DNA of 64,000 nt from Synechococcus sp. M44_DOE_062 (GTDB lineage: Bacteria > Cyanobacteriota > Cyanobacteriia > Thermostichales > Thermostichaceae): NCBI GenBank assembly GCA_015295985.1, contig DVDX01000049.1, positions 18,764 through 82,763 of the forward strand, written 5' to 3'. Positions 30,690 to 36,385 of this stretch are shown piece by piece. Position 1 is the first letter of the stretch. Each line of letters begins with the position of its first letter. Both the position numbers and the translations under genes were made by a program. A model generated the notes under the pieces. The model was not told the origin of the DNA. It was given only the letters and a program-made list of their open reading frames with translations, and made no database searches.

Positions 30690-31682
30690 ATGTCTCTTCT
30701 TTCTGCTGTTCCCACAGAGAGCCAAGCCACTGCACAGACGGGATCCCTGCTCCTAGACCGCTCCGGGTGGGGCCGTTTGCGTATGCGAGGATCCCCAGGC
30801 TTGGACTACTTGCACAACCAAAGCACTCAAAATCTGAAGGTTCTCCAGCCAGGGCAGGGGGCTGACACCGTTTTTGTAACTCCCACCGCCGGCATCCTGG
30901 ATCTGGCAACGGTGTACGTGGGAGAAGAAGACTGCTGGATCTGGACCTCACCCCAGCGGCGCAGCCTGCTGATGCAGAGTTTGAGGCGCATGCTGCCTTT
31001 GGTGCGGGGAGCAGAGTTGAAAGATGAGACAGACCAGACCTTTGGTTTTGGGTTGCTGGGTTCCCAAAGTCAGGCTCTCCTGGAGAAGGTGGTGGGCTCA
31101 GAAGGGATCCCAACCGGCCCCTATGAGCACCGCACCGTGGAGATCCAGGGGATCCCTGTCCATCTGGCTTGGGGCACGGGTCTTGCCCAAGCGGGGTTTA
31201 CCCTCTGGGGCACTATTGACCGAAAAGCAGCTCTTGAGGAATGCTTGCTCCAAGCCGGGGCCAAGCTGGCCGCACCTGAGCTGTGGGAAGCCCTGCGCCT
31301 AGAAGCGGGTCGCCCTGCTGCCGACCAAGAGCTGACCCCAGACTACAACCCCCTAGAAGCTGGCCTGTGGCAGGCTGTTTCCCTTGGCAAAGGTTGCTAC
31401 GTTGGCCAGGAAGTCTTGGCCAAGCAAGTGACCTACAAGCGCATTCGGCAAACCCTGTGGGGGATCTCCCTTCAAGGAGAAGCTCATCCTGGCACAGAGA
31501 TTTTGCGGCAGGGGGAAAAGATTGGGCTGCTGACCAGTGCGGGCCTAACTTCGCAAGGGTACTTGGGATTGGGATACGTGCGCACCAAATTCAATCCTGC
31601 CGAGGGCTTGGAAGTTGAAGTCGGCTCAGTGCCAGGAGTGCTGACCCGAATGCCGTTTTTGAGCTTCCCGCCCATTGTCTAG
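30690..31682 (+). CDS. YgfZ/GcvT-like folate-binding protein
   Basis: LWQAVSLGKGCYVGQEVLAKQVTYKRIRQTL: the K-GC-x-GQE motif of YgfZ. Confidence 0.9.
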   Translation: MSLLSAVPTESQATAQTGSLLLDRSGWGRLRMRGSPGLDYLHNQSTQNLKVLQPGQGADTVFVTPTAGILDLATVYVGEEDCWIWTSPQRRSLLMQSLRRMLPLVRGAELKDETDQTFGFGLLGSQSQALLEKVVGSEGIPTGPYEHRTVEIQGIPVHLAWGTGLAQAGFTLWGTIDRKAALEECLLQAGAKLAAPELWEALRLEAGRPAADQELTPDYNPLEAGLWQAVSLGKGCYVGQEVLAKQVTYKRIRQTLWGISLQGEAHPGTEILRQGEKIGLLTSAGLTSQGYLGLGYVRTKFNPAEGLEVEVGSVPGVLTRMPFLSFPPIV

Positions 31683-31751: not shown

Positions 31752-32009
31752 TCATAGGTCAAAGTGGCGGCGAAAGCGGGGATCCCGTTGATCCTTTTTG
31801 CGTCGGTTGCAGGTTTTGCACAACGTTTGCAGATTGCTGATATCGTTACTGCCCCCTTGGGCAATGGGGATGATGTGATCGATCTGAAGCTGAACCTCTG
31901 TGGACGATTTTCCGCAACTGCGGCAGCGGAAGCCATCTCTTTGGAAGACATACTCCCGCACGGATGCTGGAATTGGGATCCTCTTGCCAGATTTTCTCTC
32001 TTCCATCAT
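31752..32009 (-). CDS. HNH endonuclease
   Basis: YVFQRDGFRCRSCGKSSTEVQLQIDHIIPIAQGGSNDISNLQTLCKTCNRRK; CxxC...DHIIP...N...LCxxCN; 4-nt overlap with the upstream ORF. Confidence 0.92.
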   Translation of the reverse strand: MMEERKSGKRIPIPASVREYVFQRDGFRCRSCGKSSTEVQLQIDHIIPIAQGGSNDISNLQTLCKTCNRRKKDQRDPRFRRHFDL

Positions 32010-32422
32010 TCATCCATGTTGCGCAGATCGTCCAGTGGAGACTCTTCATTTAGAGATTCTGACATCTCCTGTTCAGGCTCTTTTGTCAGAAACTCAGGAT
32101 TGTCACGATAAAAGTCAATCGTAACTTCTACCCTTACTTTAACTCTACCGGTCTGCCAACAGTTGGTTTTAGGGGAAAGAACCGAGCATGGAACTCCTTT
32201 GTAGAAAAAATGAACTTTATCTTCAGGGGGGAGACCTGTTTGGATCTCAGACGAACTTAAGTAACTGTCTAGTCCACTTCCCATTTGGTCAAACCTTAGG
32301 AAATAGGAATGAATAAAGTCGCAAAGCTTAGAAATCAGGTAGACTCTGTTTTTGTTAACAAAAGTGATGACTCCGTCTCCCAGTTGGCTAAGATTGATGG
32401 ATGTTTTTGTCATTTTATTCAC
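32006..32422 (-). CDS. KGK-like domain small protein 1 with near-C-terminal SPLDDLR motif
   Basis: KGVPCSVLSPKTNCWQTGRVKVRVEVTIDFYRDN...EESPLDDLRNMDE. Confidence 0.7.
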   Translation of the reverse strand: MNKMTKTSINLSQLGDGVITFVNKNRVYLISKLCDFIHSYFLRFDQMGSGLDSYLSSSEIQTGLPPEDKVHFFYKGVPCSVLSPKTNCWQTGRVKVRVEVTIDFYRDNPEFLTKEPEQEMSESLNEESPLDDLRNMDE

Positions 32423-32423
32423 C

Positions 32424-32822
32424 TCAAGACGTAGAGACAGCTTGAATAACCCGTAAATCGTCCAGTATAGAATCTCCTGACTTTCTAGGAATGCTATCTT
32501 GAGCTACTGCTCCAGAGTCTGTAGGTTGGTCATCGGGAACAAACTCGAAATAAACCTTGACCGATATTTTGCCAGAGATCCATGACTTTCTGGGCCGCAA
32601 GACTCGAGATTTTTCCCCATTTAAGAGAGTTGTAATACCTACTCGAACACTTCTCGAGTGAAGATGACTGTTTATCCGGTATGTCTCTGCAAAAAAATAA
32701 GAGGTAATTGCACTGTGCAAGGTACTTGGAAAGTAGATTTGATCACCAATCTCAACAACAGTTTCCCTATCATCCTCTCTCAGGACTATCGGATCAACCA
32801 CTGTATTACCTCCTATTTTCAC
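32424..32822 (-). CDS. KGK-like domain small protein 2 with C-terminal-region SILDDLR motif
   Basis: SRVLRPRKSWISGKISVKVYFEFVPDDQP...GDSILDDLRVIQAVSTS. Confidence 0.7.
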   Translation of the reverse strand: MKIGGNTVVDPIVLREDDRETVVEIGDQIYFPSTLHSAITSYFFAETYRINSHLHSRSVRVGITTLLNGEKSRVLRPRKSWISGKISVKVYFEFVPDDQPTDSGAVAQDSIPRKSGDSILDDLRVIQAVSTS

Positions 32823-33283
32823 AGACTTTGCGAACCAACATCTTCACGAAGGTCATCCAGAGGGGATCCGCTGCTGCCCTCTGAGACTGTATCCTCTGGC
32901 TCAAACTCTACAGTGATCCGCAATCTGACTCTGCCTTTTTCCCAATCTTTCTTGCCCGGCACCAAGAGCTGACAAGCAAGTCCCTGCCCAAACCACTTCG
33001 CTTCTTGCATCAACTTTTCTTCTGGCTTGGGAGCAAGAAGGCTACTGGCAATGTTGAGCAAGTCTTCCGGCGGCAGGATCCCTGAGGATCTCAAGGCCGC
33101 GATGAACAAGCGATGCAGCTCTTCTTTCTTGGTCAAGTCCTCTTGGGCCGCTTTGACCAAGTTGGCAACCTTAAAAGTTTTCTCCCCTACGGAGAGGATC
33201 CCTTCTGGGTGCTGCTGTAGAGGTATCGATTTGGATCCCATGACTTTATCTCGATCAAGTGAAAGGCAAAAAACTAAAGACAA
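32819..33283 (-). CDS. KGK-like domain small protein 3 with C-terminal-region SPLDDLR motif
   Basis: GLACQLLVPGKKDWEKGRVRLRITVEFEPEDT...GSPLDDLREDVGSQSL. Confidence 0.7.
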   Translation of the reverse strand: MSLVFCLSLDRDKVMGSKSIPLQQHPEGILSVGEKTFKVANLVKAAQEDLTKKEELHRLFIAALRSSGILPPEDLLNIASSLLAPKPEEKLMQEAKWFGQGLACQLLVPGKKDWEKGRVRLRITVEFEPEDTVSEGSSGSPLDDLREDVGSQSL

Positions 33284-33289
33284 GACGCT

Positions 33290-35824
33290 CTATCTCAAAT
33301 CATCGAGGATGCTATCTAATTCTGGAAAACTCCCGTCTATGGGTGTAGAACGACTAAGAGCGCCTGCTTCGCTTGCACTGCTTTCACCTACTTGCTGTTC
33401 AGGAAGACTTGCCAAAATCTGAACTGACTCGCCAACAGAGGAAGGCTCAGGACGAGTAATCAAGGGCAGCATCTCGCGATTGAGGCCCAAAGCTTGCAGG
33501 CAGAGGTTGATCCCAGAAACAGCTTGGTTGTACTTGTCTATGTTTGCCTCCAGTTCTTTCAGCCGCTGTTGGTTAAGCGCAATTTTCTCTTCAGCTTCTT
33601 TTCTGAGAGTTGCTTCCATGAACTGCTTTGCTTCTGGGTACTTTTGTAAAATCTCATCGGCTACTTGCTTGGCAACCGGTAATAGCTGAGTTTTTAGAGT
33701 ATTGTTGGTCTCTTGTCGAAAGCTAGAACGCACTGTCTGGCTAATTTTCGGCTCGAAGTCAAGCTTAAGTAATTGTCGGATTCCAGGCTCTGCGTCTTGA
33801 ATGGCAGAGATGTCGTATGATTGGCTGGTTTGTCTTAGGACTTCTCGAAACTGGTAGATCGAGAATGTTCCTTCGTCGTAGAAGCGGGGACTTTCTCTGA
33901 GGTAGCGGTCGCACTCCTTTCGAGCACCATTGACGAGAGAACTCAAAGTTACCTCTTTAACCAAAAGAAGCTTTTTCTCCAAGTCCCCATCGGATCCCAG
34001 TAAGCGAAACAACTGCCTGTAGTAGCTCGAGCTGCGAACGTCATCAACAAGGCGACGAAAGAAGTTCTCTACAAGCGTGCTGGCTGATTCTACCAGGATG
34101 TCCTCCAGATGGTTGGATAAATAGTAAAAGGCTTCGACCAACACAGCTAAAAATGGGGCTGTGGAGTTGCGGGGACGGATGCGAACAGCTTGACTGTAAA
34201 CATTGTCCAACGAAAAAGTATCCAAAAGCTCATCTAGCCTTCGTACCATCCTAGCCTGCAACTTGCGGAAGTCATTCTCAAATTCTTTGTTTTCTCTATT
34301 GATAACTTTATTGACTACTGTCTGGATATGCTCGTCGAACTCTCGGCCAATACTGGCTAGCTGCTGATTAATCAGCGCCAGCTCATAGGAAATCATACTG
34401 TCAATATCTTTGGGCTGGCTATCAATGTCTCGGTAGAGATCTAGATAGGACTTCCTCACCTCGATGCAGAGAGGTTGCAAATCATCGGCCAGCGCGGAAA
34501 ATAGCTGTGGCCGCTTTTCTTCCGTTAAATAACGAGTGATCCCAGCCCGAAAGTCTTCAATACCGCTATCCTTAATCATATACTCAATCAAAGGTTTTCC
34601 CCACTCTCTCAGAATCCGAATGTAATTATTGATTGGTGTATCGTACCCATGCACAGAAGGACGAAATGGGGATCCAACCAACCTACCTGACGTGCAGTAC
34701 TTGTTAAACTCGCTAACAAACTGGGGTGTTTCTTCCTCACCACCCAATTCTTTGATGCTTTCTGAAAAAATCGTATCCAGTCCAAATCGATCCTCAGGGG
34801 TAGTTGTCTTGATCTGGGAACCATAGAAGCCGAGAAGGCCGCTTGTCTTGAATACGCGGAGCTGACGAAACTGCTGGTCGATAATGTTTTCCAGTCTCTG
34901 CTTTAGTTGCGCGTTGTACCAAGTCTCATCAATCCGGTTAAATACGTAGAAGACGCGGTCTCTAATGCTATCATTACCTTGAATATGCTCAATAAGCTCT
35001 GTCTCTTCCTTGGTCAGCTCACCCGTTGCAGCACACTTGAGAACGCAAACAACTGCGGACGTATCCGGATCGGCAATTTTTCGATAAGTACGCTCTGCAT
35101 CCGCTTTGACTGGAGCATCGATCCCAGGAGTATCAACAATAACGTTCCCATCTTCCAGCAAGGGGTGGTGGCAATAGTATTCCACCTTTCGCAAAACTGC
35201 ACTATTAGCACCGCGCCGGGCAAAACCCGCAGCTTCTCTCAGGTTGCCGAAGTTGAGCTGCTCCATTGAGAAAACTTTGTTCTCGGTAGAGTGAATTTTG
35301 TCCCGGTTCTGCTGGAAACCTGTAATCAACAAGCGAAGTGCATCCGCCTGCTTCGCCCGCTCTGACTTGCTTTTGCCTCCCTCCTGCTGAATAATAGCCT
35401 CAGCACGCTCCTTCAGGGGATTCAGTGCAGTGTCTTCCAGCCTGCTGAGTGACGGAGCCAAGTTTAGGAAAGCGCAGAAGGCGGTCATCTGTTCTTGCAC
35501 TTCCTGCTCGCTAAGAAAAGTGAGCACTACCCTCTCCGCATTTGGCTCTGCGTAGGCGATGTAGCACTCTGTCCCTGTGGCGTGTCCCTCGGCGCTGTAG
35601 AGAAGCTCTCTTTCTAAGAGGGCATTGATTAGCATAGACTTGCCAGCACTGAAAGCACCGGCAAAGACAATCTCGAAGGTTGGAGAAATAGCTTTGCTGA
35701 GGGAAGCTTGAATCCGAGTGGTATCTTGCTTGCCTGAAAAAGTGGAATCCTGATGCCAGAGTTGCAGGATAGCTTCAACCTGCTCTTTCAAGTTCTCACA
35801 CTGAGGCAGGAGCTTTACAGACAT
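33290..35824 (-). CDS. Dynamin-like GTPase ending in SILDDLR
   Basis: G1 GAFSAGKSMLINALL, G2 region GHATGTECYIAY, G3 DTPGID, G4 FNRID; long helical C-terminal half; terminal LDSILDDLR*. Confidence 0.88.
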   Translation of the reverse strand: MSVKLLPQCENLKEQVEAILQLWHQDSTFSGKQDTTRIQASLSKAISPTFEIVFAGAFSAGKSMLINALLERELLYSAEGHATGTECYIAYAEPNAERVVLTFLSEQEVQEQMTAFCAFLNLAPSLSRLEDTALNPLKERAEAIIQQEGGKSKSERAKQADALRLLITGFQQNRDKIHSTENKVFSMEQLNFGNLREAAGFARRGANSAVLRKVEYYCHHPLLEDGNVIVDTPGIDAPVKADAERTYRKIADPDTSAVVCVLKCAATGELTKEETELIEHIQGNDSIRDRVFYVFNRIDETWYNAQLKQRLENIIDQQFRQLRVFKTSGLLGFYGSQIKTTTPEDRFGLDTIFSESIKELGGEEETPQFVSEFNKYCTSGRLVGSPFRPSVHGYDTPINNYIRILREWGKPLIEYMIKDSGIEDFRAGITRYLTEEKRPQLFSALADDLQPLCIEVRKSYLDLYRDIDSQPKDIDSMISYELALINQQLASIGREFDEHIQTVVNKVINRENKEFENDFRKLQARMVRRLDELLDTFSLDNVYSQAVRIRPRNSTAPFLAVLVEAFYYLSNHLEDILVESASTLVENFFRRLVDDVRSSSYYRQLFRLLGSDGDLEKKLLLVKEVTLSSLVNGARKECDRYLRESPRFYDEGTFSIYQFREVLRQTSQSYDISAIQDAEPGIRQLLKLDFEPKISQTVRSSFRQETNNTLKTQLLPVAKQVADEILQKYPEAKQFMEATLRKEAEEKIALNQQRLKELEANIDKYNQAVSGINLCLQALGLNREMLPLITRPEPSSVGESVQILASLPEQQVGESSASEAGALSRSTPIDGSFPELDSILDDLR

Positions 35825-35989: not shown

Positions 35990-36385
35990 GCCAACACCGG
36001 GAAACTTCGCTGCCATCGTGACCCTCTCCGCCAGCACCCCAGATCTGGCAACGACGTAGATGGATCCCAAGCCGGGGCGGAGCTGGCCCTGACAAAATTT
36101 TTGGGAATCTCTATGCCTAGAAGCTGGTCACCCCCCCCCACCGAGCAAGAGCTGGCTCCAGACTACAGACTCCAAAAGGCAGTCTTGTGGCAGGCTGCTT
36201 CGCTTGGCAAAAGTTGCTGTATTGGCCAGGAAGTCTTGGCCAAGGGAGGGATGTATGGACACCCTGTAGGGGATCCGTCCTGGCGCAGAGGTTTTGCGGC
36301 AGGGGGAAAGGATTGGTCTGCTGGCCGGTGCTGGCTTGACTTCGTAGGGGTGCCTGAGATTGTGCGCCAAGAAAGAAATTCTTAA
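35990..36385 (+). pseudogene. Decayed partial second copy of the YgfZ/GcvT-like gene
   Basis: EQELAPDYRLQKAVLWQAASLGKSCCIGQEVLAKG aligns to [35 protein letters not shown] at 31320-31430, with internal deletions/frameshifts. Confidence 0.88.

Follow-up and report, generated by a model that had tools for sequence, protein, structure and literature searches.

A SynDLP-type dynamin, tail-bearing KGK proteins and a small HNH protein encoded together in cyanobacteria

The dynamin-like proteins of cyanobacteria include a clade, the KGK clade, in which a KGK gene lies downstream of the dynamin gene (Jilly et al., 2018; PMC5827413). SynDLP (Slr0869) was assigned to this clade in the paper that reports its structure (PMC10104851); GTPase activity, oligomerization and membrane fusion have been published for SynDLP only (PMC10104851, PMC9950537), and it has been proposed to serve the dynamics or the repair of thylakoids under stress (PMC9950537). 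Here we describe a related operon of Synechococcus sp. M44_DOE_062 (Thermostichales), located in a stretch of 64,000 nucleotides (contig DVDX01000049.1, positions 18,764 to 82,763; "the window", to which all coordinates below refer). In this operon a SynDLP-type dynamin gene is followed by three KGK genes and by the gene for a small HNH protein; the dynamin and the KGK proteins carry the motif LDDLR at or near their C-termini. We read the operon, with a probability of about one half, as a chromosomal, mostly vertically inherited module composed of a SynDLP-type dynamin, KGK adaptors with a docking tail and a small HNH nuclease.

The first-pass annotation had presented the operon as a candidate new system. 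The pairing of dynamin and KGK genes is already published (PMC5827413, PMC10104851); the HNH partner, which is mentioned neither by Jilly et al. (2018) nor in the SynDLP structure paper (PMC5827413, PMC10104851), and the convergent tail on the dynamin appear to be new. The KGK family (PF08872) is seldom named in the literature that we searched, subscription papers lying outside the scope of that search.

A conserved operon of dynamin, KGK and HNH genes

The window dynamin (844 residues; 33290..35824, minus strand) is an ortholog of SynDLP: it matches Dynamin_N (9.5e-16) and scores 1024 bits against Slr0869 (PDB 7zw6) across residues 4-799, and a Foldseek search with its AlphaFold2 (AF2) model ranks the same structure first (7zw6, 4.8e-68). 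The GTPase (G) domain, bundle signalling element (BSE) and stalk that characterize SynDLP-type dynamins are recognizable in both sequence and fold, and the gene context is of the same type, that is, three KGK genes follow directly downstream with gaps of no more than 6 nucleotides. By analogy with SynDLP, the window dynamin is presumably membrane associated.

In the order of transcription, the next three genes, all on the minus strand, encode KGK protein 3 (KGK3; 154 residues; 32819..33283; PF08872, 1.5e-20, 74.2 bits; LDDLR at 32846..32860), KGK2 (132 residues, GTG start; 32424..32822; 1.3e-9, 38.9 bits; LDDLR at 32451..32465) and KGK1 (138 residues, GTG start; 32006..32422; 3e-16, 60.4 bits; LDDLR at 32021..32035); the motifs in KGK2 and KGK1 were located by reading the open reading frames (ORFs) and by pattern search. 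The assignment of the TTG start to KGK3 is tentative; an alternative ATG (giving MGSKSIP) lies 14 codons downstream. The last gene encodes a small HNH protein (85 residues; 31752..32009, minus strand; HNH_5, 6.2e-21). The genes are separated by +6 (dynamin/KGK3), -4 (KGK3/KGK2), +1 (KGK2/KGK1) and -4 (KGK1/HNH) nucleotides. Our reading of the window confirmed the coordinates and spacing of these five packed minus-strand ORFs, and the translations confirmed the LDDLR tails on four products and the lack of one on the HNH protein.

The three small proteins had been described as KGK-like, and a hidden Markov model search bears this out: all three exceed the curated cut-off of PF08872 (25.6 bits). 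They had also been described as "otherwise different" products that share a motif, and this description does not stand, since they are paralogs of a single Pfam family whose match takes in the LDDLR tail (residues 27-147 in KGK3). We found no KGK genes beyond these three in the window genome. The AF2 model of a KGK protein (predicted local distance difference test, pLDDT, 80) had no significant match among PDB folds, and the KGK profile had no match among PDB sequences.

The gene neighborhood is retained elsewhere: the order dynamin-KGK-HNH is conserved in other cyanobacteria, so that the operon forms a conserved unit that includes the HNH gene. Of the named loci, 59 extend at least 4 kb downstream of the dynamin gene; 30 of these have both KGK and HNH genes in that position, five have KGK only, five have HNH only and 19 have neither; many operons contain several tandem KGK genes, and in 20 named loci there is a single one. 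The three families are also inherited together. We searched 292 cyanobacterial genomes with a C-terminal dynamin query (dropping the marginal matches in genomes G073 and G114, E about 7-9e-4) and kept matches to the HNH subfamily at about 2e-20 or better; the dynamin was found in 72 genomes, KGK in 73, the HNH subfamily in 65 and all three in 54. When the genomes are grouped by genus (115 genera), dynamin and HNH are both present in 37, one of the two occurs alone in five and two, and both are missing from 71; the corresponding numbers for dynamin and KGK are 38, four and five, and 68. Apart from a few exceptions, genomes with the dynamin have a single copy of it, and its tree largely tracks taxonomy. 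Loss can be seen within the genus of the window: in Thermostichus G296, dynamin, KGK and HNH subfamily have been lost jointly. In a further genome of this genus (G297, locus L289, 590-1498), dynamin residues 1-220, with two stops near the start, abut a complete open HNH frame; the remainder of the dynamin and all of the KGK genes are deleted.

Because small HNH genes are common, the HNH gene might be a mere passenger whose place beside the dynamin and KGK genes reflects nothing but inherited order, and the HNH gene is indeed missing from 11 of the 72 dynamin genomes. However, hardly any genome without the dynamin holds this HNH subfamily (61 of its 65 genomes have both). Positions were compared in 60 genomes: in 44 the HNH gene follows the dynamin gene on its strand at a distance of no more than 6 kb, and the other 16 retain it although it is not close downstream. 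The outer neighbors of the operon are not conserved; they differ across lineages (among the 20 considered, they are metabolic, signalling/regulatory or unknown), so the linkage is more than the inherited order of a whole region. The HNH subfamily also keeps a family-specific C-terminal end, D-x-R-F-x-R, across 75 relatives. Finally, dynamin and HNH genes occur as pairs without KGK: in G002, G066 and G207 they are adjacent and no KGK gene is detectable, so KGK is not indispensable. We therefore regard the passenger explanation as improbable; judged from its distribution, the small HNH protein belongs with the dynamin and the KGK proteins as a genuine third partner. In the 75 relatives, the cysteines expected to bind zinc (C29, C32, C64 and C67) and the catalytic-type residues D44, H45 and N59 are 97-100% conserved, and the protein is probably an active nuclease. 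In the loci of family f2 (L214, L215 and L216), the dynamin and HNH genes are adjacent or overlapping with no KGK gene between them, an arrangement that may be a simpler version of the module.

On one side of the window operon lies an intact YgfZ/GcvT-like gene (30690-31682, plus strand), on the other a decayed partial copy of it (36018-36362, plus strand); the two form direct repeats with 74-84% identity across pieces of 31-111 nucleotides. These copies may be the trace of an insertion of the operon or of a regional duplication.

The C-terminal motif of KGK proteins and of some dynamins

The motif had been proposed to be a short linear tag, shared by the products of the operon and bound by a common partner. 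The tail, in the form SPLDD[IL]R, belongs to the KGK family: 120 of 128 KGK ORFs carry it (relaxed pattern), and several of the others have near variants, so its presence in the three window paralogs is expected. In an alignment of 65 KGK sequences, S140 and L142 (100%), R146 (98%) and D143 (95%) are conserved like the KGK core, and the linker that precedes them is variable. A different type of end, FDDVWQD (e.g., LFDDVWQDMNE), is conserved in long KGK proteins (248-640 residues; loci L164, L165, L166 and L167); these have an acidic, repetitive and probably disordered region, which in one of them scored as FG-nucleoporin-like.

The motif is highly specific to the dynamin/KGK unit, as judged by pattern searches and sampled loci. 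In a set of 6,489 complete ORFs (60 residues or longer) from 101 cyanobacterial loci, [ST]xLD[DE][ILVF]R occurs within the last 30 residues of KGK and dynamin ORFs exclusively. In the whole window genome, the looser DNA pattern for LD[DE]xR gave 35 matches and its reversed control 44; the motif is thus not in excess across the genome. Thirty of the 35 were examined: all four operon copies are C-terminal, one plausible gene outside the operon encodes it close to the C-terminus, in a tail of coiled-coil-like character (LDDLRAEVAQLRSELQKYRSRNA), and the remaining matches near a stop lie in short or doubtful frames. A general, proteome-wide LDDLR tag is therefore rejected for this genome. The first-pass annotation had named two conditions that would refute its linking idea, namely tails no more frequent beside dynamin and KGK genes than elsewhere and a neighborhood not conserved in any other genome; checked as far as patterns and sampled loci allowed, the idea withstood both. 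In Okeania, the majority of the PLDDL[RK] matches fall within the dynamin/KGK locus. Another end that recurs in this genus, PFDDL[SN], lacks the Arg and belongs to a long unrelated protein ending VVPPPPPxLPFDDL[SN] (L241, L247, L248 and L250); two Okeania contigs (G299:C773 and G302:C702) contain expanded KGK arrays with many copies of the tail, some in short broken frames.

The tail is found on nine of 129 distinct dynamins: the window dynamin and those of G177, G295, G298 and SM2_3_2 (Thermostichales and relatives), and four from Okeania; in the dynamin of SM2_3_1 (L085) the frame is broken before the end, so the state of the tail cannot be read. In a dynamin tree built without the tails, supported branches force two changes; as read from this tree, the tail is a rare, convergent feature gained at least twice independently, in Thermostichales and in Okeania. 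The Thermostichales tail stops at LDDLR (33293..33307, minus strand, in the window dynamin). The Okeania end, EEVSPLDDLRQQMNLNS, resembles the ends of the Okeania KGK proteins, EVSPLDDLRQKFNQEN, which makes copying from a neighboring KGK gene plausible. In the AF2 model of the window dynamin, LDDLR forms the extreme end of a disordered tail of about 50 residues (pLDDT <50 for residues 793-844) with a short helix (836-843) that covers SILDDLR, as fits a presented linear motif.

These observations bear on the possibility that the motif has no docking role, that is, that it is a structural element of the KGK family that reached the dynamin by chance or by functionless gene conversion. The inclusion of the tail in the Pfam KGK model, its absence from nearly all dynamins and the resemblance of the Okeania dynamin end to KGK ends, with neighbor copying plausible, agree with this explanation; the two gains, each present in every sampled member of the tail clades with a readable end (five Thermostichales, four Okeania), the confinement of the motif to the KGK and dynamin families within the sampled loci and the tendency of KGK tails to accompany the dynamin make it unlikely.

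For that last comparison we used a KGK model built without the tail: tailed KGK proteins occur in 39 of 48 dynamin-positive genomes and in two of ten dynamin-negative genomes (p = 4e-4, not corrected for ancestry). In the two tailed dynamin-negative genomes the KGK gene is interrupted by a stop (G149) or apparently decayed (G237); the other dynamin-free genomes have KGK proteins without the canonical tail or KGK domains within long proteins. That the tail tracks the presence of the dynamin favors the dynamin as its receptor. The motif could instead bind the KGK domain, so that KGK proteins form head-to-tail chains that a tailed dynamin joins as one more link, a client and not a receptor. The tandem KGK genes of many operons would suit such chains, as would the universal tail of the small KGK proteins, modeled by AF2 as a helix with moderate confidence, and the acquisition of a KGK tail by a dynamin would be accounted for directly. 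However, many operons have a single KGK gene, and the KGK domains kept in dynamin-free genomes have for the most part no canonical tail, so that the tail goes with the dynamin rather than with KGK; we consider chains possible but doubtful.

A possible mechanism and its regulation

The mechanism that we tentatively propose, as a possibility, is that S-x-L-D-D-[IL]-R is a dedicated cyanobacterial motif that docks KGK adaptors on a dynamin coat and couples the coat to the HNH nuclease, and that it moved onto the dynamin at least twice. In our main reading, docking within the module explains the pattern best. Each KGK protein would have a globular domain joined by a variable linker to a C-terminal docking motif, S-x-L-D-[DE]-[IL]-R. 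This motif would dock inside the module, most likely on the dynamin oligomer and, as a second choice, on the KGK domain of a neighboring subunit, and the KGK proteins would thereby be brought to the membrane coat as its adaptors or regulators. The dynamins of Thermostichales and Okeania could use that site, in cis or in trans, through their own tails. The HNH protein, taken as an active nuclease, would work once membrane stress engages the dynamin. The specificity of the motif, the conserved unit and the two gains on dynamins, as predicted for a shared docking tag, suggest that the LDDLR tag is the docking handle that holds the module together; what does not fit a tag shared by unrelated products is that the motif is a KGK-family end that most dynamins lack.

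Published expression data, together with the literature on SynDLP, favor a stress function. In the RNA-seq table for a Synechocystis lexA mutant, slr0868-slr0871, that is, the SynDLP gene and its neighbors, are up 6- to 16-fold, and these genes are not discussed in the passages of that paper that we found (PMC4759255). In two triple sigma-factor mutants slr0869 is down, from which the authors infer control by SigC or SigE (PMC8875361).

Several results weigh against our reading of the module. In the AF2 model of the whole dynamin, the tail is not docked on the dynamin's own body and remains disordered, and 120 of the 129 dynamins have no tail. KGK is missing from ten of the 72 dynamin genomes which, with the 11 that lack HNH, implies that neither partner is strictly required. 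The p-values for co-occurrence assume independence and ignore shared ancestry, so they indicate a strong association only. The LexA box RGTACNNNDGTWCB has no matches in 109 regions upstream of dynamins; membership in the LexA (SOS-box) regulon is therefore rejected, and the effect of the lexA mutation may be indirect.

With a solved structure and eukaryote-like oligomers available for SynDLP, the HNH partner and the portable motif open the cellular role of these dynamins to testing. The questions raised are what the tail binds and why a membrane-fusing GTPase travels with a nuclease. In the tail-bearing dynamins of Thermostichales and Okeania, nature has already carried out gain-of-motif experiments. 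If our reading is correct, a membrane-remodelling machine is linked to nucleic-acid cleavage.

Defence and comparison with known systems

The first-pass annotation had also raised a role in defence, for which we found no positive support. In an anti-phage system, the dynamin would sense phage damage at the membrane, KGK would relay the signal and HNH would degrade nucleic acid. The architecture (a nuclease with a membrane GTPase) and the patchy distribution across the phylum are compatible with this, and Bacillus subtilis DynA is reported to confer phage tolerance (PMC8844932). However, searches of viral contigs and plasmids with the dynamin, and of phages with KGK3, gave no match; the dynamin is mostly single-copy, with a tree that largely tracks taxonomy; and no recognized defence family occurs among the 20 outer neighbors, which, where assigned, are metabolic or regulatory. 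PADLOC matches are partial, at the level of the G domain or the HNH domain only. We consider an anti-phage function rather improbable, and membership in the defence systems is rejected on the partial matches and the lack of a mobile or defence-island context.

The window dynamin shares membership in the bacterial dynamin superfamily with B. subtilis DynA, which is tied to membrane damage and phage tolerance, and with LeoA of LeoA/LeoBC; the similarity to both is partial (6e-10 for LeoA; 40.7 bits against a cut-off of 1600 for the DynA model). The HNH protein resembles the HNH domains of IscB and Cas9 in its Zn Cys pairs and DH...N core, and scores show similarity to the IscB HNH domain (NCBIfam IscB, 68.9 bits; PDB 9k2z, 6e-7). 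In contrast to these, it is of a stand-alone type of 80-100 residues with its own D-x-R-F end and has no guide RNA or RuvC parts; an assignment as the RNA-guided endonuclease IscB is ruled out, since the score covers the HNH part only and lies far below the cut-off of 175 bits. Within PF08872, the three window KGK proteins are regular members, tail included, with no difference in kind. The closest relatives are SynDLP and the KGK clade of cyanobacterial dynamin-like proteins, with which the operon shares the dynamin fold and the KGK genes that follow the dynamin; it differs from most of them in that its dynamin carries the KGK tail.

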